From NCBI GenBank assembly GCA_028279365.1, contig JANQNX010000013.1, positions 1 through 64,000 of the forward strand: a stretch of DNA of 64,000 bases, in the 5' to 3' direction. A program made the translations under genes and the position numbers. Source of the stretch: Gammaproteobacteria bacterium. GTDB taxonomy: Bacteria > Pseudomonadota > Gammaproteobacteria > Eutrophobiales > Eutrophobiaceae. The notes under the pieces are model-generated. The model was not told where the DNA came from, did no database searches, and saw only the letters and a list, made by a program, of their open reading frames with translations. Positions 43,585-63,219 of this stretch are shown in pieces; the first letter of the stretch is position 1; every line of letters starts with the position of its first letter.

Positions 43585-44310
43585 ATGTTTAAACAAATCA
43601 AAAACGTTTTTACTAAAAAGAAAAAAAACAGTGACGAGCTATTGCAGCTTGCACAAAGTGTAAAAGATATGTCTTTACCGGAGAAACAAAATACACTTTA
43701 TGGTGAAGCGCATATACAGCAACAGATTTTATATGAAAAATGGGTTGCCAGAGATGTTTGGAATCTGAAAACAGAGGGGGTGCCATTACTTTGTGGTCTT
43801 AATCCTGATGAAGAAGGGACTGAAACCGAGGCAAATCAGGAAGTCGTTAATTTATGGCAGCATGCGAAGGAGTGTGTGAATAAAAATATGCTATCCATTA
43901 AGAATACTGAACTGGATGAAGACAAATGGGAGGTATCACCTTCGGATTTATATTGTTGGGCGACGGTCAGTCGGGTGACAGTGCCTGCTGAATTATCTAC
44001 TTTAATGGAGTTCGTATTGCAGACGGTTAAGCTACAGTCTGAGCCTAATAATACTACGGCTGTCTCGAGCGAAGACCAGCGTTACATGGCAGATCGTGAA
44101 ACCGTGTTGGGGGCTGCATTGTTCTATCTCGTCAATCATGCAGAAAAATGTCAGACTCGGAAAGGTAAAATCTCATCGAGAAATATTATTCCCTTGATCA
44201 TGCAGGATAGTGGTATCTGGTTTAACAAAAATGAACCTTTGTTAAACGCGCCGGCAATGGAAGATTTAATCAATCAGTATATTAAACAACAAATACCATC
44301 AGGAAATTAA
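43585..44310 (+). CDS. Protein of unknown function (241 aa)
   Basis: I do not recognise this protein. It opens with a basic stretch (FKQIKNVFTKKKKNSDE), has no signal peptide or membrane segment, and is mostly helical and polar. Two cysteines stand in PLLCGLNPDE and HAKECVNKN, others in DLYCWATV and AEKCQTRKG. It follows the DUF455 gene by 22 nt and its last 12 nt overlap the end of the vWA-FHA gene on the other strand. It could be a cytoplasmic partner of the adjacent minus-strand cluster, but only nearness suggests so. Confidence 0.6.
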   Translation: MFKQIKNVFTKKKKNSDELLQLAQSVKDMSLPEKQNTLYGEAHIQQQILYEKWVARDVWNLKTEGVPLLCGLNPDEEGTETEANQEVVNLWQHAKECVNKNMLSIKNTELDEDKWEVSPSDLYCWATVSRVTVPAELSTLMEFVLQTVKLQSEPNNTTAVSSEDQRYMADRETVLGAALFYLVNHAEKCQTRKGKISSRNIIPLIMQDSGIWFNKNEPLLNAPAMEDLINQYIKQQIPSGN

Positions 44311-45792
44311 CGGTGTTTTTGTTTTTTGCATGACGGTTGATTCTTCCAGTGAGTATTCAGGCGCATATTGCGTGAACGTTAGAAAAATATCGCCTATTTC
44401 AATCACATCACCTTCCTGAAGCGACGCCTTGCCGACTTTGTTATTGTTAATGTAAAGGCCGTTCATTGAATTCATATCGCGTATATTAAATGTACCATCG
44501 TTGTCCCGATGTATCTCTGCATGCTTTCTCGAGATTGAATTATCATTAATAGACAGTTCGTTATCTTTGCCTCTGCCAATACGCCAGATAGTTCGTGTTA
44601 TCGGATAGCGTTTACTGGCATCATCTTGTGATATGAGATACGCATAGGGTTTGTATTCCTCTTTGTTTTCTTTCGGGTCTTTTACAGACGGGCGTTGCCA
44701 TAATAAAAAGAGTGTAATCAATATCAGTACGATAATGATAATAAAGGCAGCCGGGATGCCGTACCAAATCCATAGATTGATCGGCTGTGTCTCAGTTTGC
44801 CGGGTAATAATTTGTACCGGGACTTGCGGCGTTGGGTTATTACTTTTGGCAACGACTGTAGCTGGTGTCGTGGTTTGCGGCGCTATTTTTTTCGCTTGTA
44901 TCGGTGTACGCGAAATCGTAATCGGAACATTTAGTGCGATTGTTTTTTTTGCATTAACTAATGCCAGTTTGATTGATTTTGGGCTTGAATCAAGTTCATC
45001 AAGTGAGACACGAAACTTGCCTGTGTGTTTGATGTTGGCAAAAGGGTCAAGAAAATAGCTGTCTGGTAATACGTAGGAAGAAGATGCTTCGATATATTCT
45101 CCACCGGTCTCCTCGCTGATTCGCCTGATAGTTTGCAAGGCAACTGACAGTGCAACGTTTCTGGGATAGCCAATGGAATTGATCACGACCCCGGATTTGC
45201 GTGCGGCTTTAACAACATCATTATGGAAATAGGCTTTATCTTCAGCTTGTCCATCAGAGAACAGCACAATCAGTTTTTGTTCAGCATCAATGCTGTGTAA
45301 ATACTTAATCGCTTCCAGCAGGCTGCGATAGAGTTCAGTAGTTTTGCCCATTGCGCGCAATTGCTGCAACTGCTTGTTTAAAATAAAGCTCGAAGCTCCC
45401 ATTGCTGATTCAATCCGAAATGTTTTATCAAATGATGCCAATCCGATTTTGTATTCTGGCGTCAGTGATTTTAGTAAGCGCGTGATATGTGTTTTATTTT
45501 TGTCGACGACGTTCTGTCTGCCCGGATCGCTGGTATCGACAACAAACAGGATGGCGGTTTCAGGTTGTCTGGATTCCTGTTTAGCAACAGGGAGGGGTTG
45601 CTTAGCGTTGTATGCCTTTATACTTTTTAGCGGCTCATTATTCAGGCTACGGTACTGACACTCCAGAGTTTCTGCTGTTTGTTGGCAGCTGATGTCGATA
45701 GACGCGTCAAGGTGTTGCCATGCAAACAGGCTAGAAGACGAAACGATGCTGATGAAGAATAGTACAAGACAATTTGAGCGTTTAAATGGCAA
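44299..45792 (-). CDS. Exported vWA domain - transmembrane - FHA domain protein
   Basis: A 497-aa protein: signal peptide (CLVLFFISIVSSSSLFAW); periplasmic vWA domain at about 78-255 (ILFVVDTSDPGR, LIVLFSDGQAEDKAYF, INSIGYP); a Thr/Pro/Gln linker; one membrane segment at about 343-368 (IPAAFIIIIVLILITLFLLW); and a cytoplasmic FHA domain at about 395-480 with RIGRGKDNELSINDNSISRKHAEI and NSMNGLYINN, the phospho-Thr-binding residues intact. The metal site reads DTSDP instead of DxSxS, so metal binding may be weak. It is the last gene of a six-gene set and would link phospho-signals inside to a periplasmic partner. Confidence 0.88.
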   Translation of the reverse strand: MPFKRSNCLVLFFISIVSSSSLFAWQHLDASIDISCQQTAETLECQYRSLNNEPLKSIKAYNAKQPLPVAKQESRQPETAILFVVDTSDPGRQNVVDKNKTHITRLLKSLTPEYKIGLASFDKTFRIESAMGASSFILNKQLQQLRAMGKTTELYRSLLEAIKYLHSIDAEQKLIVLFSDGQAEDKAYFHNDVVKAARKSGVVINSIGYPRNVALSVALQTIRRISEETGGEYIEASSSYVLPDSYFLDPFANIKHTGKFRVSLDELDSSPKSIKLALVNAKKTIALNVPITISRTPIQAKKIAPQTTTPATVVAKSNNPTPQVPVQIITRQTETQPINLWIWYGIPAAFIIIIVLILITLFLLWQRPSVKDPKENKEEYKPYAYLISQDDASKRYPITRTIWRIGRGKDNELSINDNSISRKHAEIHRDNDGTFNIRDMNSMNGLYINNNKVGKASLQEGDVIEIGDIFLTFTQYAPEYSLEESTVMQKTKTPLIS

Positions 45793-45818
45793 TGACTTGT
45801 CCCATTTTTTGGTCGAGT

Positions 45819-46331
45819 TTATTTATCCGGAAAAAGAGGATCAGGCATGTCGTAAAATTCTATGTGTACCGATTTCATTCCTCTTTTCTGTTCCGTGATT
45901 TCGTTAAATGAATCATCCGGTTCCTTGAATTCACCCAGCTGTGCGATGTCTTTATCAAGTTTGGCATTCACATTGATAATTCTTTCATGCAATTCATTCG
46001 AATAGGGAACCTGGTAGGCGCGAGGTTCGCCGGTAGTCGACATATTTTCAATCTCGGTCAGCCACAAATACACTGCACCATCGTCGCCGGTTTCTTTGTT
46101 CGGTTGTGCAACGTGGGCGGAGATTAATCGAAATTGTTCAGGCGGGTTTTCAGTGGTTGGCCAGCCGAGCAAGGGGGGAAATGAAAAATAAGTAATAATA
46201 TAAAAGGCGGATGTCAGTACGATGGTAAACGCCTTAACAGGCCAGGGCCATTTTGAATACAAATTCAGACTCAGTAATAATAAGCCAACCAAGATGAATG
46301 CGGTAACGATGCCGGTAATTCCCAATATCAT
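45819..46331 (-). CDS. Small two-pass membrane protein of unknown function
   Basis: A 170-aa protein with two N-terminal membrane segments (GITGIVTAFILVGLLLLSL and KAFTIVLTSAFYIITYFSFPPLLG), then a soluble domain of about 110 residues (EQFRLISAHVAQPNKETGDDGAVYLWLTEIE ... SVHIEFYDMPDP). No family recognised. It stands between the ExbD-like and vWA-FHA genes with gaps of about 25 nt, so it is a likely subunit of the same complex. Confidence 0.7.
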   Translation of the reverse strand: MILGITGIVTAFILVGLLLLSLNLYSKWPWPVKAFTIVLTSAFYIITYFSFPPLLGWPTTENPPEQFRLISAHVAQPNKETGDDGAVYLWLTEIENMSTTGEPRAYQVPYSNELHERIINVNAKLDKDIAQLGEFKEPDDSFNEITEQKRGMKSVHIEFYDMPDPLFPDK

Positions 46332-46355
46332 AATATTTTCCAGAGTTAATGATTG

Positions 46356-46949
46356 TTATCCTAATAAGACTAATGATTTTGGCAGGAAGTTAATGCCGAA
46401 TATCTCGCCATCCCTACCAATTTTAAATCTGACAGCGGTTTTCTCATCGCCCTTTTTCTCCAGGTTGACGTTGCCGTAATAGACGACTTCAAGTACTGGA
46501 TTCACTTTAGCAAGTCGAACTGCAACATCGACCGGCTTACCTGTTTCGGAGGCGTAGTAGTGTACGTTGACAACATACTCGCCTTTAACAACGCCCCTGA
46601 GCGTAACGACTTCCTGGTTTAACGGATTCTGTACTTCTTCACCATTGATGGTAATGGTGTCATTGACCAGGCCTCGATCATCGCGATCAAGGTGTAACAG
46701 TCCTGCCTCCGGTGTTCTAAACCAGACTATCTGGCCCTCAGGATCTTCGACCCAAACATCAACATCATCCGGGCTATTGTCTTCCCAGGTGATGGTAAGA
46801 ATATATTCTGCCTTTGGATCAATAATCCCGGTTTTTGCCTCAGGGTTCATAAACATGATGGCGACCAGAAACAAAAACGTAAAGCCGAGCAGGGCATTAA
46901 ACAGTAAATCTGTAAATGGATCCGATCGAAATCTTTTCTTGATGCTCAT
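46356..46949 (-). CDS. ExbD/TolR-like membrane anchor with beta-sandwich-like periplasmic domain
   Basis: A 197-aa protein. The N-terminus RFRSDPFTDLLFNALLGFTFLFLVAIMF is a single membrane helix with an early Asp, as in ExbD/TolR/MotB proton-path helices. The periplasmic part is neither an ExbD nor an OmpA domain: ILTITWEDNSPDDVDVWVEDPEGQIVWF and GEYVVNVHYYASETGKPVDVAVRL resemble the DUF2135/YfaP-type beta sandwich. It follows the MotA/ExbB-like gene by 23 nt, so the two should form the ion-driven core of a complex. Confidence 0.75.
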   Translation of the reverse strand: MSIKKRFRSDPFTDLLFNALLGFTFLFLVAIMFMNPEAKTGIIDPKAEYILTITWEDNSPDDVDVWVEDPEGQIVWFRTPEAGLLHLDRDDRGLVNDTITINGEEVQNPLNQEVVTLRGVVKGEYVVNVHYYASETGKPVDVAVRLAKVNPVLEVVYYGNVNLEKKGDEKTAVRFKIGRDGEIFGINFLPKSLVLLG

Positions 46950-46972
46950 GAGAGGATTATTTGTAAGCTGGT

Positions 46973-47710
46973 TCAGTTAGTTTTCGGAATCACATGGACC
47001 TGGGTTAGGTGACGCGTTAACTCAATGAGTTCGTCGGCATGACGATCCAACATGTGATATTGCATGGCTGATAAGATGCTGCCAATCAATCCAGCAAGGG
47101 TTGTATATAGTGCGGTGGCCATGCCATCACTCATATTACTTAGAATTTTCTGCATAGTTGTTACATCAAAGTCGACAATATTGGAAACTGAACCCAACAT
47201 TAAAATAAAGCCGATAATCGTACCAAGTAAGCCCATTTTTAGCATCATATCGGACACAAACCAGCCTATTTCCTGCGGCCCTTTTAATCTGGATTCATAG
47301 ACGTCAATCAAATCGGATGGTGAGCCCGTTTCTTCATCCATTTTTTTATTTTTATTTCTGAGATAAAGATCGCTGATGTAATCAGTCATAAAGCAGTCCG
47401 GTAACTCAATGGCGTCATTGATAGAAACCTTGTCGTCTGTCACCTTTATGCTGAGTTGTTCCTGCTGTTTGATGATGTTATCGACAGTGTGAGACAGATT
47501 GGCCTGTAATGACATCGAATAAATCAATTTTGCACAGTGTAATGTGACTAAAACATAGACCAAGGCAATAGCCCATGAAATCCTGCTTTTGTCCACATAA
47601 AACAGTAAGGAAATAATGTCCTGATCCCAGGCAACGACGACAGCGAATACAATTAACCCGGTTAAGGTTAGCCATTTCAGGAAAAGAATGTGTTCAGGTT
47701 GTTTTTTCAT
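46973..47710 (-). CDS. MotA/TolQ/ExbB-family proton-channel-like protein
   Basis: A 245-aa protein with an N-terminal hydrophobic hairpin (residues about 9-66), a cytoplasmic loop, and the family C-terminal channel pair: GLLGTIIGFILMLGSV and MSDGMATALYTTLAGLIGSILSAMQYHML. The GT-x-GF and TALYTTLAGL patterns are the channel-lining motifs of MotA/TolQ/ExbB. There is no long cytoplasmic coiled tail like ZorA. It probably uses the proton gradient to move the ExbD-like anchor encoded next. Confidence 0.85.
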   Translation of the reverse strand: MKKQPEHILFLKWLTLTGLIVFAVVVAWDQDIISLLFYVDKSRISWAIALVYVLVTLHCAKLIYSMSLQANLSHTVDNIIKQQEQLSIKVTDDKVSINDAIELPDCFMTDYISDLYLRNKNKKMDEETGSPSDLIDVYESRLKGPQEIGWFVSDMMLKMGLLGTIIGFILMLGSVSNIVDFDVTTMQKILSNMSDGMATALYTTLAGLIGSILSAMQYHMLDRHADELIELTRHLTQVHVIPKTN

Positions 47711-47727
47711 AACAAACGCTACCTATT

Positions 47728-48225
47728 TTATCCATCTTCAAATGCAAAAGGATCATCATTTGCGGCATAGTCTACCATTGAGCGAAGTAAGACATTAATA
47801 TTTTTTGCGACCTGATCAAGGCTTTGGTTACCGCTTTGTTCAGGCATCAGGCGTGTACTGACAATGAGCCCATCGTTCACCGCGACGACTGCAAGTTTAT
47901 AAGGGCAATAGTTGATATATCGGGGTTCTATAACCAACATGCTTTCGGCGATAGAAAGATTGCAGAACAGAATTACCTCATGATCAGGAAAAGTATCACT
48001 GCCGCGTTCCTGTATGGCTTGACCAATATGCAAACGGTTAGTGATGCGAAAGTTTTTTTCGGTAATCATAAATTCTGCATCTTGTATCACATCGGCAAAT
48101 GCTTTCTGCGTTTTTTGTTCATAAATATTATCTGCAGGAGCAGCACACGCACCCACTAGTATTAACAAAACGAAAACGGTCCAGCAACGCAACGAGGCAG
48201 ACGGACCGGAGATATTGCTTAACAT
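47728..48225 (-). CDS. DUF302-family lipoprotein
   Basis: A 165-aa protein with a lipoprotein signal: hydrophobic VFVLLILVGAC with Cys27 as the lipidation site. The mature part has the DUF302 pattern: ITEKNFRITNRLHIGQAIQERGSDTFPDHEVILFCNLSIAESMLVIEPRYINYCPYKLAVV. Residues after Cys are AAP, which fits outer-membrane sorting. It precedes the channel-like gene by 17 nt. Confidence 0.8.
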   Translation of the reverse strand: MLSNISGPSASLRCWTVFVLLILVGACAAPADNIYEQKTQKAFADVIQDAEFMITEKNFRITNRLHIGQAIQERGSDTFPDHEVILFCNLSIAESMLVIEPRYINYCPYKLAVVAVNDGLIVSTRLMPEQSGNQSLDQVAKNINVLLRSMVDYAANDDPFAFEDG

Positions 48226-48274
48226 TGAATCGGGTGCATTTGTATTTTCAGAGTTTAGTTAAGCCGGATAAGTT

Positions 48275-48844
48275 TCATTCCACAATAACGACCTGGGTTC
48301 CAATATCAACATATTGTTTTAGCTCAATGATTTCTTCATTGGTCAGCGCAATACAGCCTTCGGTCCAGTCAAGCTCCTCGTGGATGGTCAGTTTTTTTTC
48401 GGTCGTCTCGCCAAGCCCGTGTATGCCAATGAAACCACCAAGCTGAGTATCTTGTGGGGGAATCTCGCGTTTCTTATACGCGCTGGCAATACGTTTGAAT
48501 TCTCCTGAGTCAATAATCTGGTTTTTGTAGCCATACCAGGCGTCGATCAGGTTCGGATAATCAAGCTGCATAAAAAAATGGAAACGGTCACTGTCCTTCA
48601 ATTCAGTAATTCGATAGGTACCTAGAGGCGTCTTGCTATCGCCACGTTTTCGTTTTGTGCCTTTTCCACCTTTGCCGGTCGCAATATGATAGGTCTTGAT
48701 AATACGTCCGTCTTTTTGCAATTTGAGTTCACTGTTCTTTTTTGAGACTAATATCTGATAGTCATTTGCCAGTAATTTGTGGCAAGGTATCAACAGTAGC
48801 ATCAGCACTGGCATCAGGACGACTACAATACGTTTGAAAATCAT
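48275..48844 (-). CDS. L,D-transpeptidase (YkuD family)
   Basis: A 189-aa exported protein (signal peptide VVVLMPVLMLLLIPCHKLLA). The YkuD catalytic motif is present: IHGLGE with His142, then DWTEGCIALTNEE with the nucleophile Cys164. The GDSKTPLGTYRI stretch is typical of the YafK/ErfK group. It forms or cuts L,D cross-links, or attaches proteins to peptidoglycan. It is the first gene of the minus-strand cluster, 49 nt before the DUF302 gene, and diverges from cytochrome b561. Confidence 0.9.
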   Translation of the reverse strand: MIFKRIVVVLMPVLMLLLIPCHKLLANDYQILVSKKNSELKLQKDGRIIKTYHIATGKGGKGTKRKRGDSKTPLGTYRITELKDSDRFHFFMQLDYPNLIDAWYGYKNQIIDSGEFKRIASAYKKREIPPQDTQLGGFIGIHGLGETTEKKLTIHEELDWTEGCIALTNEEIIELKQYVDIGTQVVIVE

Positions 48845-61965: not shown

Positions 61966-63219
61966 ATGAAAATTCTGATTATCGATGATTCAAGCGACTA
62001 TCGTGCATTATTACGGCTCTATCTAAATAAAGAGTTGAGTGACGTCGAGATCGTCGATTACGACTTCGACAATTTAGGTAAGCCCCCAGATAACTTCAAC
62101 TGGGTTGAATATGATGTGCTTTTTCTGGACTACAAGTTAGGCCCATCGGAAGACGGCCTATCCTGGTTAAAAGAGTTCAGAGATAAACCCGGTTTCCCTC
62201 CCACCATTATCCTGACCGCGGAAGGTGATGAATATGTCGCGGTAAAATCGATAAAACTTGGTGCGTCCGACTACATTAACAAAGTCGATATCAAACCAAA
62301 GGTCATTGCCAAGATGGTTAATGAGGCCTGTGAATTTTCCAAGAAGACGGTTTATGAACAGCAAAACGATATTAATGAAGCTACGCAGATTATTAAAAAA
62401 GTCGTAAAAAAAGATGCAGTGCCGGATACGGGACTCGATATAGGCTATAAATTTGTACGCATGATTGGCGAAGGTGCGATGTCGAAAGTCTATCTGGCGG
62501 AACGCGTTAGCGATAAAAAAACGGCGGTATTAAAGATACTTGATTTGACGCGTGTTAAAGAACAGAAATTAATCCGTCGATTCATTCAGGAAGCAAATTT
62601 AATCGCTGAATTGAATTCTCCATTCGTGGTCAGTATTTTTGATCAAGGCCTGACAGAGGAATACGGTTATATTGCGATGGAGTTCTTTTCCCGTGGCGAC
62701 CTCAAACAGCGAGTTGAATTTGGTCTAAACCACGAAATAGCGATTATTTATGCCACACATATCGCCTATGGTCTGGAACAAATTCACCAGATTGATGTTG
62801 TGCATCGGGATCTTAAACCGGCCAATATTATGTTTCGTGGCGATGATAGTCTGGCCTTGGCAGATTTCGGTATTTCCAAAAAACTCGATAAAGTCAGCGA
62901 CATTACGACATTTGGCCAGATATTGGGGACACCGCATTACATGAGTCCGGAGCAGGGTGAAGGACACAGTGTCGATGCACGAACAGATTTATATAGCCTG
63001 GGTGTGTTGTTGTATGAAATGTTAACCGGAAATAAACCGTATTCTGCCAAAACCCCTGCAGCGATGATTTATCAACATGTGATGGCACCGATACCCAAGC
63101 TGCCGAAAGCCTTATCACGTTATCAGCCGGTAATAGATGGTTTATTAGCAAAACGACCGGAAGATAGAATAGCTTCGGCCAGAGATGTGATCAATGAACT
63201 TGAGACGTTGCAGGCTTAA
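61966..63219 (+). CDS. Receiver domain - Ser/Thr protein kinase fusion
   Basis: A 417-aa cytoplasmic protein. Residues 1-125 are a receiver (D7/D8, phospho-Asp D55 in LFLDYKLG, Lys in YINKVD). Residues about 158-415 are a complete Hanks-type kinase: glycine loop IGEGAMSKVYLAE, Lys190, catalytic HRDLKPAN (D282, an RD kinase), DFG at D300, and GTPHYMSPEQ. No membrane segment or PASTA domain. Phosphorylation of the receiver probably switches the kinase. Its receiver is clearly similar to that of the coiled-coil response regulator at the left end. The stop overlaps the convergent TPR gene by 4 nt (TTAA). Confidence 0.93.
   Translation: MKILIIDDSSDYRALLRLYLNKELSDVEIVDYDFDNLGKPPDNFNWVEYDVLFLDYKLGPSEDGLSWLKEFRDKPGFPPTIILTAEGDEYVAVKSIKLGASDYINKVDIKPKVIAKMVNEACEFSKKTVYEQQNDINEATQIIKKVVKKDAVPDTGLDIGYKFVRMIGEGAMSKVYLAERVSDKKTAVLKILDLTRVKEQKLIRRFIQEANLIAELNSPFVVSIFDQGLTEEYGYIAMEFFSRGDLKQRVEFGLNHEIAIIYATHIAYGLEQIHQIDVVHRDLKPANIMFRGDDSLALADFGISKKLDKVSDITTFGQILGTPHYMSPEQGEGHSVDARTDLYSLGVLLYEMLTGNKPYSAKTPAAMIYQHVMAPIPKLPKALSRYQPVIDGLLAKRPEDRIASARDVINELETLQA

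Follow-up and report, generated by a model that had tools for sequence, protein, structure and literature searches.

Results and discussion

A 64,000-nucleotide stretch of DNA from a gammaproteobacterium of the Eutrophobiaceae (contig JANQNX010000013.1 of GenBank assembly GCA_028279365.1, positions 1 to 64,000, here called the window) carries a cluster of six genes at 44299–48844 on the minus strand. The conserved unit in this cluster is three genes, not six: a MotA/ExbB-like channel, an ExbD-like peg, and a protein with two transmembrane (TM) helices, and this triad recurs in bacteria and in phages. We suggest that it is probably a MotA/ExbB/TolQ-class envelope motor driven by ions, whose distinctive head is predicted to be TerD-like. 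The features of the three core genes are as follows.

46973–47710, minus strand: MotA/TolQ/ExbB-type channel, core gene 1 (245 aa; Pfam PF01618, 2.3e-11)
46356–46949, minus strand: ExbD/MotB-like peg, core gene 2 (197 aa; short N-terminus, one TM helix, predicted periplasmic beta-sandwich)
46908–46910, minus strand: codon of the membrane Asp of the peg, D14, the presumed ion carrier (the Asp is conserved; the role is taken from MotB, ExbD, and TolR)
46389–46805, minus strand: predicted TerD-like beta-sandwich of the peg, residues 49–187 (structure comparison; invariant D62, D64, D90, D91, E113, R118, and N128)
45819–46331, minus strand: two-TM protein, core gene 3 (170 aa; small C-terminal domain; hydropathy)

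All six open reading frames (ORFs) of the cluster are present, with gaps, in order from the L,D-transpeptidase (LDT) gene to the vWA-FHA gene, of 49, 17, 23, 24, and 26 nt. An earlier sequence-only reading of this DNA had described six minus-strand genes with gaps of 17–49 nt, among them a MotA/ExbB-type pair whose periplasmic domain is unusual and which has no TonB/TolA, OmpA, or flagellar partner. The ORFs, the Pfam domains, and the scans of the cluster proteins bear this out: the channel matches PF01618, and the Pfam scan of the window proteins matched no family to the peg or the two-TM protein. By hydropathy, the peg has one TM helix and the small core protein has two.

The triad in bacteria

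The bacterial scan took one genome per species and gave at least 375 confirmed loci; counts out of 80 refer to the best 80 of these. The triad is complete, on the same strand and in the same order, in 78 of them, while contig ends truncate the remaining two; the two-TM protein is the third gene in 79. These loci come from records titled Gammaproteobacteria, Alphaproteobacteria (many of them single-cell marine genomes), Betaproteobacteria, Deltaproteobacteria, and Nitrospirae, and cultured carriers among them are Thiothrix eikelboomii, Ideonella paludis, and Methylohalomonas lacus. In even samples, 40 of the 369 genomes from the class and 13 of the 299 from the phylum had the triad, so the distribution is patchy yet widespread. 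A plasmid search gave no match. The full order LDT, DUF302, MotA, ExbD, two-TM, vWA-FHA was found again in related genera, and the triad within it in 78/80 bacterial and 67/68 viral loci, so the cluster is not a chance arrangement. The sequence-only reading had taken the six genes as the unit. The channel, ExbD-like, and two-pass genes do stay together, far beyond close relatives, but the vWA-FHA gene adjoins only 27 of the 80 loci; the triad is the conserved part, and the accessory genes are optional.

The peg was found in 29 of 58 related genomes, with 62–91% identity for most full-length matches and two copies in several, including the window's own genome. Loci in these relatives are of two kinds, one with the window arrangement and the other with the channel, peg, and two-TM genes alone beside a lipoprotein of another family. 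The second triad of the window's genome (contig C6, about 398 kb; L031:5868–7774) is of the latter kind. It adjoins a response regulator and a 147 aa exported protein, with a DUF3108-like lipoprotein on the opposite strand. Genomes of only 1.0–1.1 Mb (L309, L310) have a bare triad among genes named by eye as fumarase, adenylosuccinate-lyase-like, and aconitase-like. The bacterial copies are strongly conserved and keep the same place within a clade, these tiny genomes included. The conservation of the peg, the highest in the cluster, and the retention of the triad in such streamlined genomes suggest a maintained housekeeping role in bacteria.

Two genomes have unusual copies. In one (G034), the same cluster lies near the ends of two contigs (L040 on C7 and L057 on C8) with near-equal identities, probably as an assembly duplicate. 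In the other (G035), a peg copy at L065:1707–2135 aligns only at residues 1–65 and 160–197, as if the middle of the head had been deleted, while its neighbours are intact; this genome also holds a second, full peg copy (L056).

The triad in phages

A 6.8 kb contig of a relative (L035), with the triad in a phage-like context, gave the lead to a viral search. In annotated phage records searched by tblastn, the peg was found in 25 Rhizobium and Sinorhizobium phage records, and it is annotated ‘hypothetical protein’ in all regions opened. Six of these phages, RHph_N34 (N34), RL2RES, N3_19, X2_25, I1_18, and TM3_3_14B, were opened, and all six have a short PF01618-like protein upstream of the peg and a two-TM protein downstream. 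The triad of Rhizobium phage 16-3 is p038, p040, and p042, with small genes interspersed. A scan of IMG/VR gave 261 stretches that encode a relative; a viral scan with the window peg alone had no match. IMG/VR contigs are counted as viral on the listing of that database, and the copies in isolated phages are independent of it.

In the 68 distinct viral loci inspected, the channel is present in 67, the peg in 68, and the two-TM protein, as the third gene, in 68, on one strand and in one order throughout. The sole locus without a channel (L105) stops at a contig end. The viral genes overlap, with median spacings of −11 and −1 nt, and this overlap, together with the constant order, fits a complex that is made together. 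Viral contigs are as long as 527 kb, with terminase, endolysin, DNA polymerase, and phage exonuclease genes nearby in those tested. No further neighbour of the viral triads is conserved (the best is at 11/68 loci), and the phages, like the streamlined bacterial genomes, carry the bare triad without accessories. None of nine triad proteins matched PHROGs. In a quick tree of the pegs, viral and bacterial sequences fall on opposite sides of one branch with a support of 94; the sets were picked by closeness to different queries, so that sampling is biased, and all that the tree speaks against is very recent transfer among the rows sampled.

In 16-3, X2_25, and TM3_3_14B, the channel gene is preceded by a gene for a trypsin-like protease that is probably periplasmic; in 16-3 and its relatives this gene lies directly before or just upstream of the triad (L313:4244–5143, L069:5577–6224, and L071:5093–5803). 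One marine phage type has an M15-type endolysin, of a PHROG lysis family, just upstream of the triad (L127:3658–4125 and L035:4043–4516).

The channel, the peg, and the two-TM protein

PF01618 was matched by all 55 aligned channel members, viral ones included, and the match of the window protein is above the cut-off. W13, D40, G160, G163, T204, and G207 are invariant in the channel. One TM helix was found in 146 of the 148 peg sequences counted, and the membrane Asp is kept in 146/149, comprising 68/68 viral and 78/81 bacterial pegs. Furthermore, W55, D62, D64, L87, D90, D91, G93, E113, R118, G123, N128, and T171 are invariant in all 149. The ExbD model of Pfam (PF02472) matched neither the window peg nor 59 aligned pegs, and the label ‘ExbD-like’ refers to the topology of the protein, to the Asp in its membrane helix, and to its PF01618 channel partner.

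An AlphaFold2 model of the peg from the 59-sequence alignment has a mean predicted local distance difference test score (pLDDT) of 90.4, with a helix at residues 11–34 and the strands of a beta-sandwich at 49–187. Compared with the PDB by VIA-align, this model matched 3ibz (Z = 11.4, 140 residues, 4.4 Å), 2qng (9.8), 2qz7 (9.7), and 2kxt (9.2), whose titles say TerD, TerD-like, or function unknown. The top six structural matches have Z between 9.2 and 11.4 over 126–140 residues, and the next, which is unrelated, has 5.7. A TerD-like fold of the peg head is thereby well supported for a prediction. Sequence searches of the PDB with the channel, the peg, and the peg profile gave chance-level or weak TolQ matches only, and a BFVD fold search gave only low TM-scores. 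DUF2135 was considered as a relative of the head and rejected, with only sub-threshold matches (5 of 59 pegs, best 0.021). The model of the two-TM protein has a pLDDT of 86.8 and no clear fold match; its best Z values were 7.3 (helices) and 6.5 (C-terminal part).

TerD of Klebsiella binds Ca2+, and its Ca1 site is reported to comprise residues 40, 41, 42, 78, 79, and 89 (PMC8779313). A non-significant hhalign alignment (E = 0.18) places W55 and D62-x-D64 of the peg on W29 and D40-L-D42 of TerD. That the peg head would bind Ca2+ is a good guess.

A probable ion-driven envelope motor

In MotAB, ExbBD, and TolQR, a PF01618 protein and a neighbouring single-TM protein with a membrane Asp form a ring and a peg that are driven by ions. 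We read the triad as a motor because all three of these sequence hallmarks are present in it. MotA-MotB, ExbB-ExbD, and TolQ-TolR have been described as a 5:2 ion-driven motor family (PMC9389320). The triad resembles its members in the PF01618 channel and in an adjoining protein that crosses the membrane once, has an Asp where the membrane helix begins, and carries a periplasmic domain. It differs in that the head is predicted to be TerD-like, whereas theirs are ExbD/TolR or OmpA-like, and in its occurrence as a phage cassette with much shorter channels. Unlike in ExbBD and TolQR, the third subunit is a two-TM protein and not TonB or TolA. Membership of the Ton and Tol systems was rejected, since neither a PF02472 peg nor a TonB/TolA partner was matched in the window proteins and the 59 pegs, as was flagellar membership, for which the partners are missing.

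What might such a machine do? Beside the observed gene conservation, domains, predicted topology and fold, and residue invariance, we infer the assembly, ion flow, Ca2+ binding, movement, and target of the triad as follows. Gene 1 would form a ring-shaped channel and gene 2 a central peg, the membrane Asp of which would carry the ion. In the periplasm, the part that moves would be the TerD-like head, probably with Ca2+ bound, and gene 3 would be a dedicated two-TM partner that aids it. Ion flow would rotate or extend the head, leading to action on a component of the wall or outer membrane. The partners in the window's lineage would be a vWA-FHA sensor, a YkuD enzyme, and a DUF302 lipoprotein, and in other lineages a DUF3108-like lipoprotein; these would be lineage-specific clients or controls. 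Phages would carry the bare engine, which presumably keeps or alters the envelope of the infected host.

Several observations weigh against this proposal. The phage channel proteins have only about 113–190 aa and a small cytoplasmic part, which makes a MotA-style transfer of torque unlikely for them. One clade of pegs (L054, L055, L212, L251, L255, and the alphaproteobacterial L306/L307) has the membrane Asp replaced, in the motif FDPxxxxLFK; another Asp lies one helical turn earlier and the helix contains a Lys, a pattern that hints at another mode of ion coupling. Kinship with TerD has no support from sequence: hhalign gave E = 0.41 and 0.18 in two runs, and PF02342 was matched by neither the window peg nor the 59 pegs. 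We therefore rejected TerD kinship by sequence and retain it at the level of the fold only. The window's own genome has no PF02342 match either.

We put forward more tentatively, as a view that falls a little short of an even call, that the triad is a third widespread class of MotA/ExbB-type motor, marked out by a third subunit with two TM helices and a periplasmic head that is TerD-like: a conserved proteobacterial envelope machine that phage genomes have contained for a long time and that, during infection, drives a change of the host envelope for exclusion or upkeep. If so, tailed phages of several unrelated types encode a complete proton-driven envelope motor, MotA/ExbB motors have a new type of head, and the poorly understood Ter fold is tied to a membrane machine. 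There would also be a testable role for three genes called hypothetical in 16-3, RHph_N34, RL2RES, and many environmental bacteria, some with genomes of about 1 Mb. The parts are of known kinds, and what is new is how they are combined, the third subunit, and the occurrence in phages. No named system was matched by all members of the cluster, in line with the sequence-only reading, and the combination is not in Pfam, NCBIfam, PADLOC, or PHROGs. Open-access literature on phage-encoded ExbB/MotA, on TerD with ExbD/MotB, and on FHA/vWA with ExbB yielded no description of the triad. Closest to it are reports on phage Ter systems (PMC7824862) and on deep-sea Lentisphaerae phages, in which a single ‘ExbB energizer’ has been annotated as a metabolic gene and named part of a Ton system (PMC11361711). 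The latter is likewise a phage-encoded ExbB-class protein, but that report concerns one gene, with no peg, triad, or TerD-like head reported.

Alternative explanations

Of the other explanations, superinfection exclusion or anti-phage defence survives best, although we consider it unlikely: the triad would sense or block DNA entry at the envelope, and phages would use it to exclude competitors. Both Zorya ZorAB and phage Ter systems have been proposed to act in this way on DNA entry. A stand-alone cassette that is widespread in unrelated phage genomes, and that in 16-3 lies about 4 kb from the immX genes, would suit this role, and phage Ter proteins have been proposed to counter superinfecting phages (PMC7824862). 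However, the bacterial copies are conserved in a fixed place within a clade, down to tiny genomes, unlike typical patchy defence genes, and the tree, with its biased sampling, gives no sign of frequent exchange between viral and bacterial copies. Like ZorAB, the triad has a MotA-type channel and a peg outside motility and transport, and the channel has weak ZorA profile matches (best 1.1e-5), which also count in favour of exclusion. Unlike Zorya, its channel is without a long cytoplasmic tail and it is carried by phages themselves; ZorB (with its OmpA-like domain), ZorC, ZorD, and ZorE were unmatched in the six proteins by PADLOC and Pfam scans, and Zorya membership was rejected. The likeness to Ter systems (TerD, PF02342; phage Ter operons, PMC7824862) lies in the predicted head fold, the similar order of the acidic motif, and, in the window's lineage, a vWA protein nearby. 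The triad differs from them in a head that is membrane-anchored, predicted to be periplasmic, joined to a MotA/ExbB channel, and without a significant sequence match; the cluster also lacks TerB, TerC, and TerZ.

The second alternative takes the six genes as one unit, in which phosphorylation sensed by the FHA domain drives a motor that acts on the cell wall via the L,D-transpeptidase. The accessory genes of the window are as follows.

48275–48844, minus strand: L,D-transpeptidase-type YkuD protein (189 aa; Pfam PF03734, 2.7e-21)
47728–48225, minus strand: DUF302 lipoprotein (165 aa; lipobox VGAC; PF03625, 2.8e-7)
44299–45792, minus strand: vWA-TM-FHA protein (497 aa; TTG start; signal peptide, vWA domain, TM helix at about 346–364, cytoplasmic FHA domain; FHA 5.2e-20, VWA 2e-12)

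The recurrence of the complete order in related genera, about 20 Pkinase matches in the genome, and the presence of all three accessories in 17/80 loci favour such a unit. Yet the vWA-FHA gene is missing in close relatives that keep the other five (L040, L041, L045, L057, and L058), LDT or DUF302 is present singly or absent at some loci, and the bare triads are left unexplained, so that we find this alternative improbable. The YkuD/LDT gene is present in 31/80 loci (by clustering) and the DUF302 gene in 23/80, with at least one of the three accessories in 38/80. A DUF3108-like lipoprotein, which matches PF21347, adjoins 33/80, and none of these 33 also has LDT, DUF302, or vWA-FHA; the two accessory sets are mutually exclusive within the 80 loci. 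Median identities to the window at LDT-bearing loci are 77.7% for the peg, 57% for the two-TM protein, 56% for LDT, 49% for the channel, and 45% each for DUF302 and vWA-FHA. This ranking, with the accessory swaps, indicates that the head of the engine is most constrained and that its partners are exchangeable. The phospho-threonine input that the sequence-only reading proposed does not hold as a general principle, because the vWA-FHA gene is missing from many triad loci, from the DUF3108-like lineage, and from phages. For the window's lineage, such a reading by FHA is possible, since the genome has the Pkinase matches and the domain has the signature residues GR, SRKH, and NG (by eye). Beyond the view of that reading lay the copies in phages, the second copy in the genome, the TerD-like fold, and the mutual exclusion of the two accessory sets.

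Slightly less probable again is an ion-gated device for Ca2+ or another metal, in which Ca2+ is buffered or sensed by the TerD-like head and the membrane part serves simply as a channel, with no mechanical work done. Ca2+ binding by Klebsiella TerD (PMC8779313; title of 2kxt) and the invariant acidic cluster of the peg are in its favour, but the acidic residues may be structural, and a membrane Asp with a PF01618 partner is the hallmark of the force-generating pairs MotAB, ExbBD, and TolQR. The PF01618 channel and the peg would also fit an ordinary energiser of the Ton type that serves a single outer-membrane transporter, but this is very improbable and already disfavoured, as Pfam matched no TonB/TolA in the cluster and no conserved transporter adjoins the 80 bacterial or 68 viral loci.

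Accessory proteins and neighbouring genes

The YkuD protein has the catalytic motif (IHG...EGCIAL, for H...GC) without the usual Arg after GCI. Its match to the LdtF/DpaA profile is partial and far below the cut-off, and an amidase or other activity of the DpaA kind is possible. The metal site of the vWA domain has DTSDP where DxSxS is usual; the later Thr and Asp are retained, and metal binding may be altered. A gene for a 241 aa protein without a Pfam match (43585–44310) is convergent with the vWA-FHA gene, overlaps it by 12 nt, and accompanies the cluster in 16/80 loci. The ORF at 61966–63219, with a response-regulator-like start and a Pkinase match at 62446–63183, encodes a fusion of a receiver and a Ser/Thr kinase. 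Two further MotA/ExbB matches lie just beyond the end of the window, at 65.6 and 66.1 kb of the contig.

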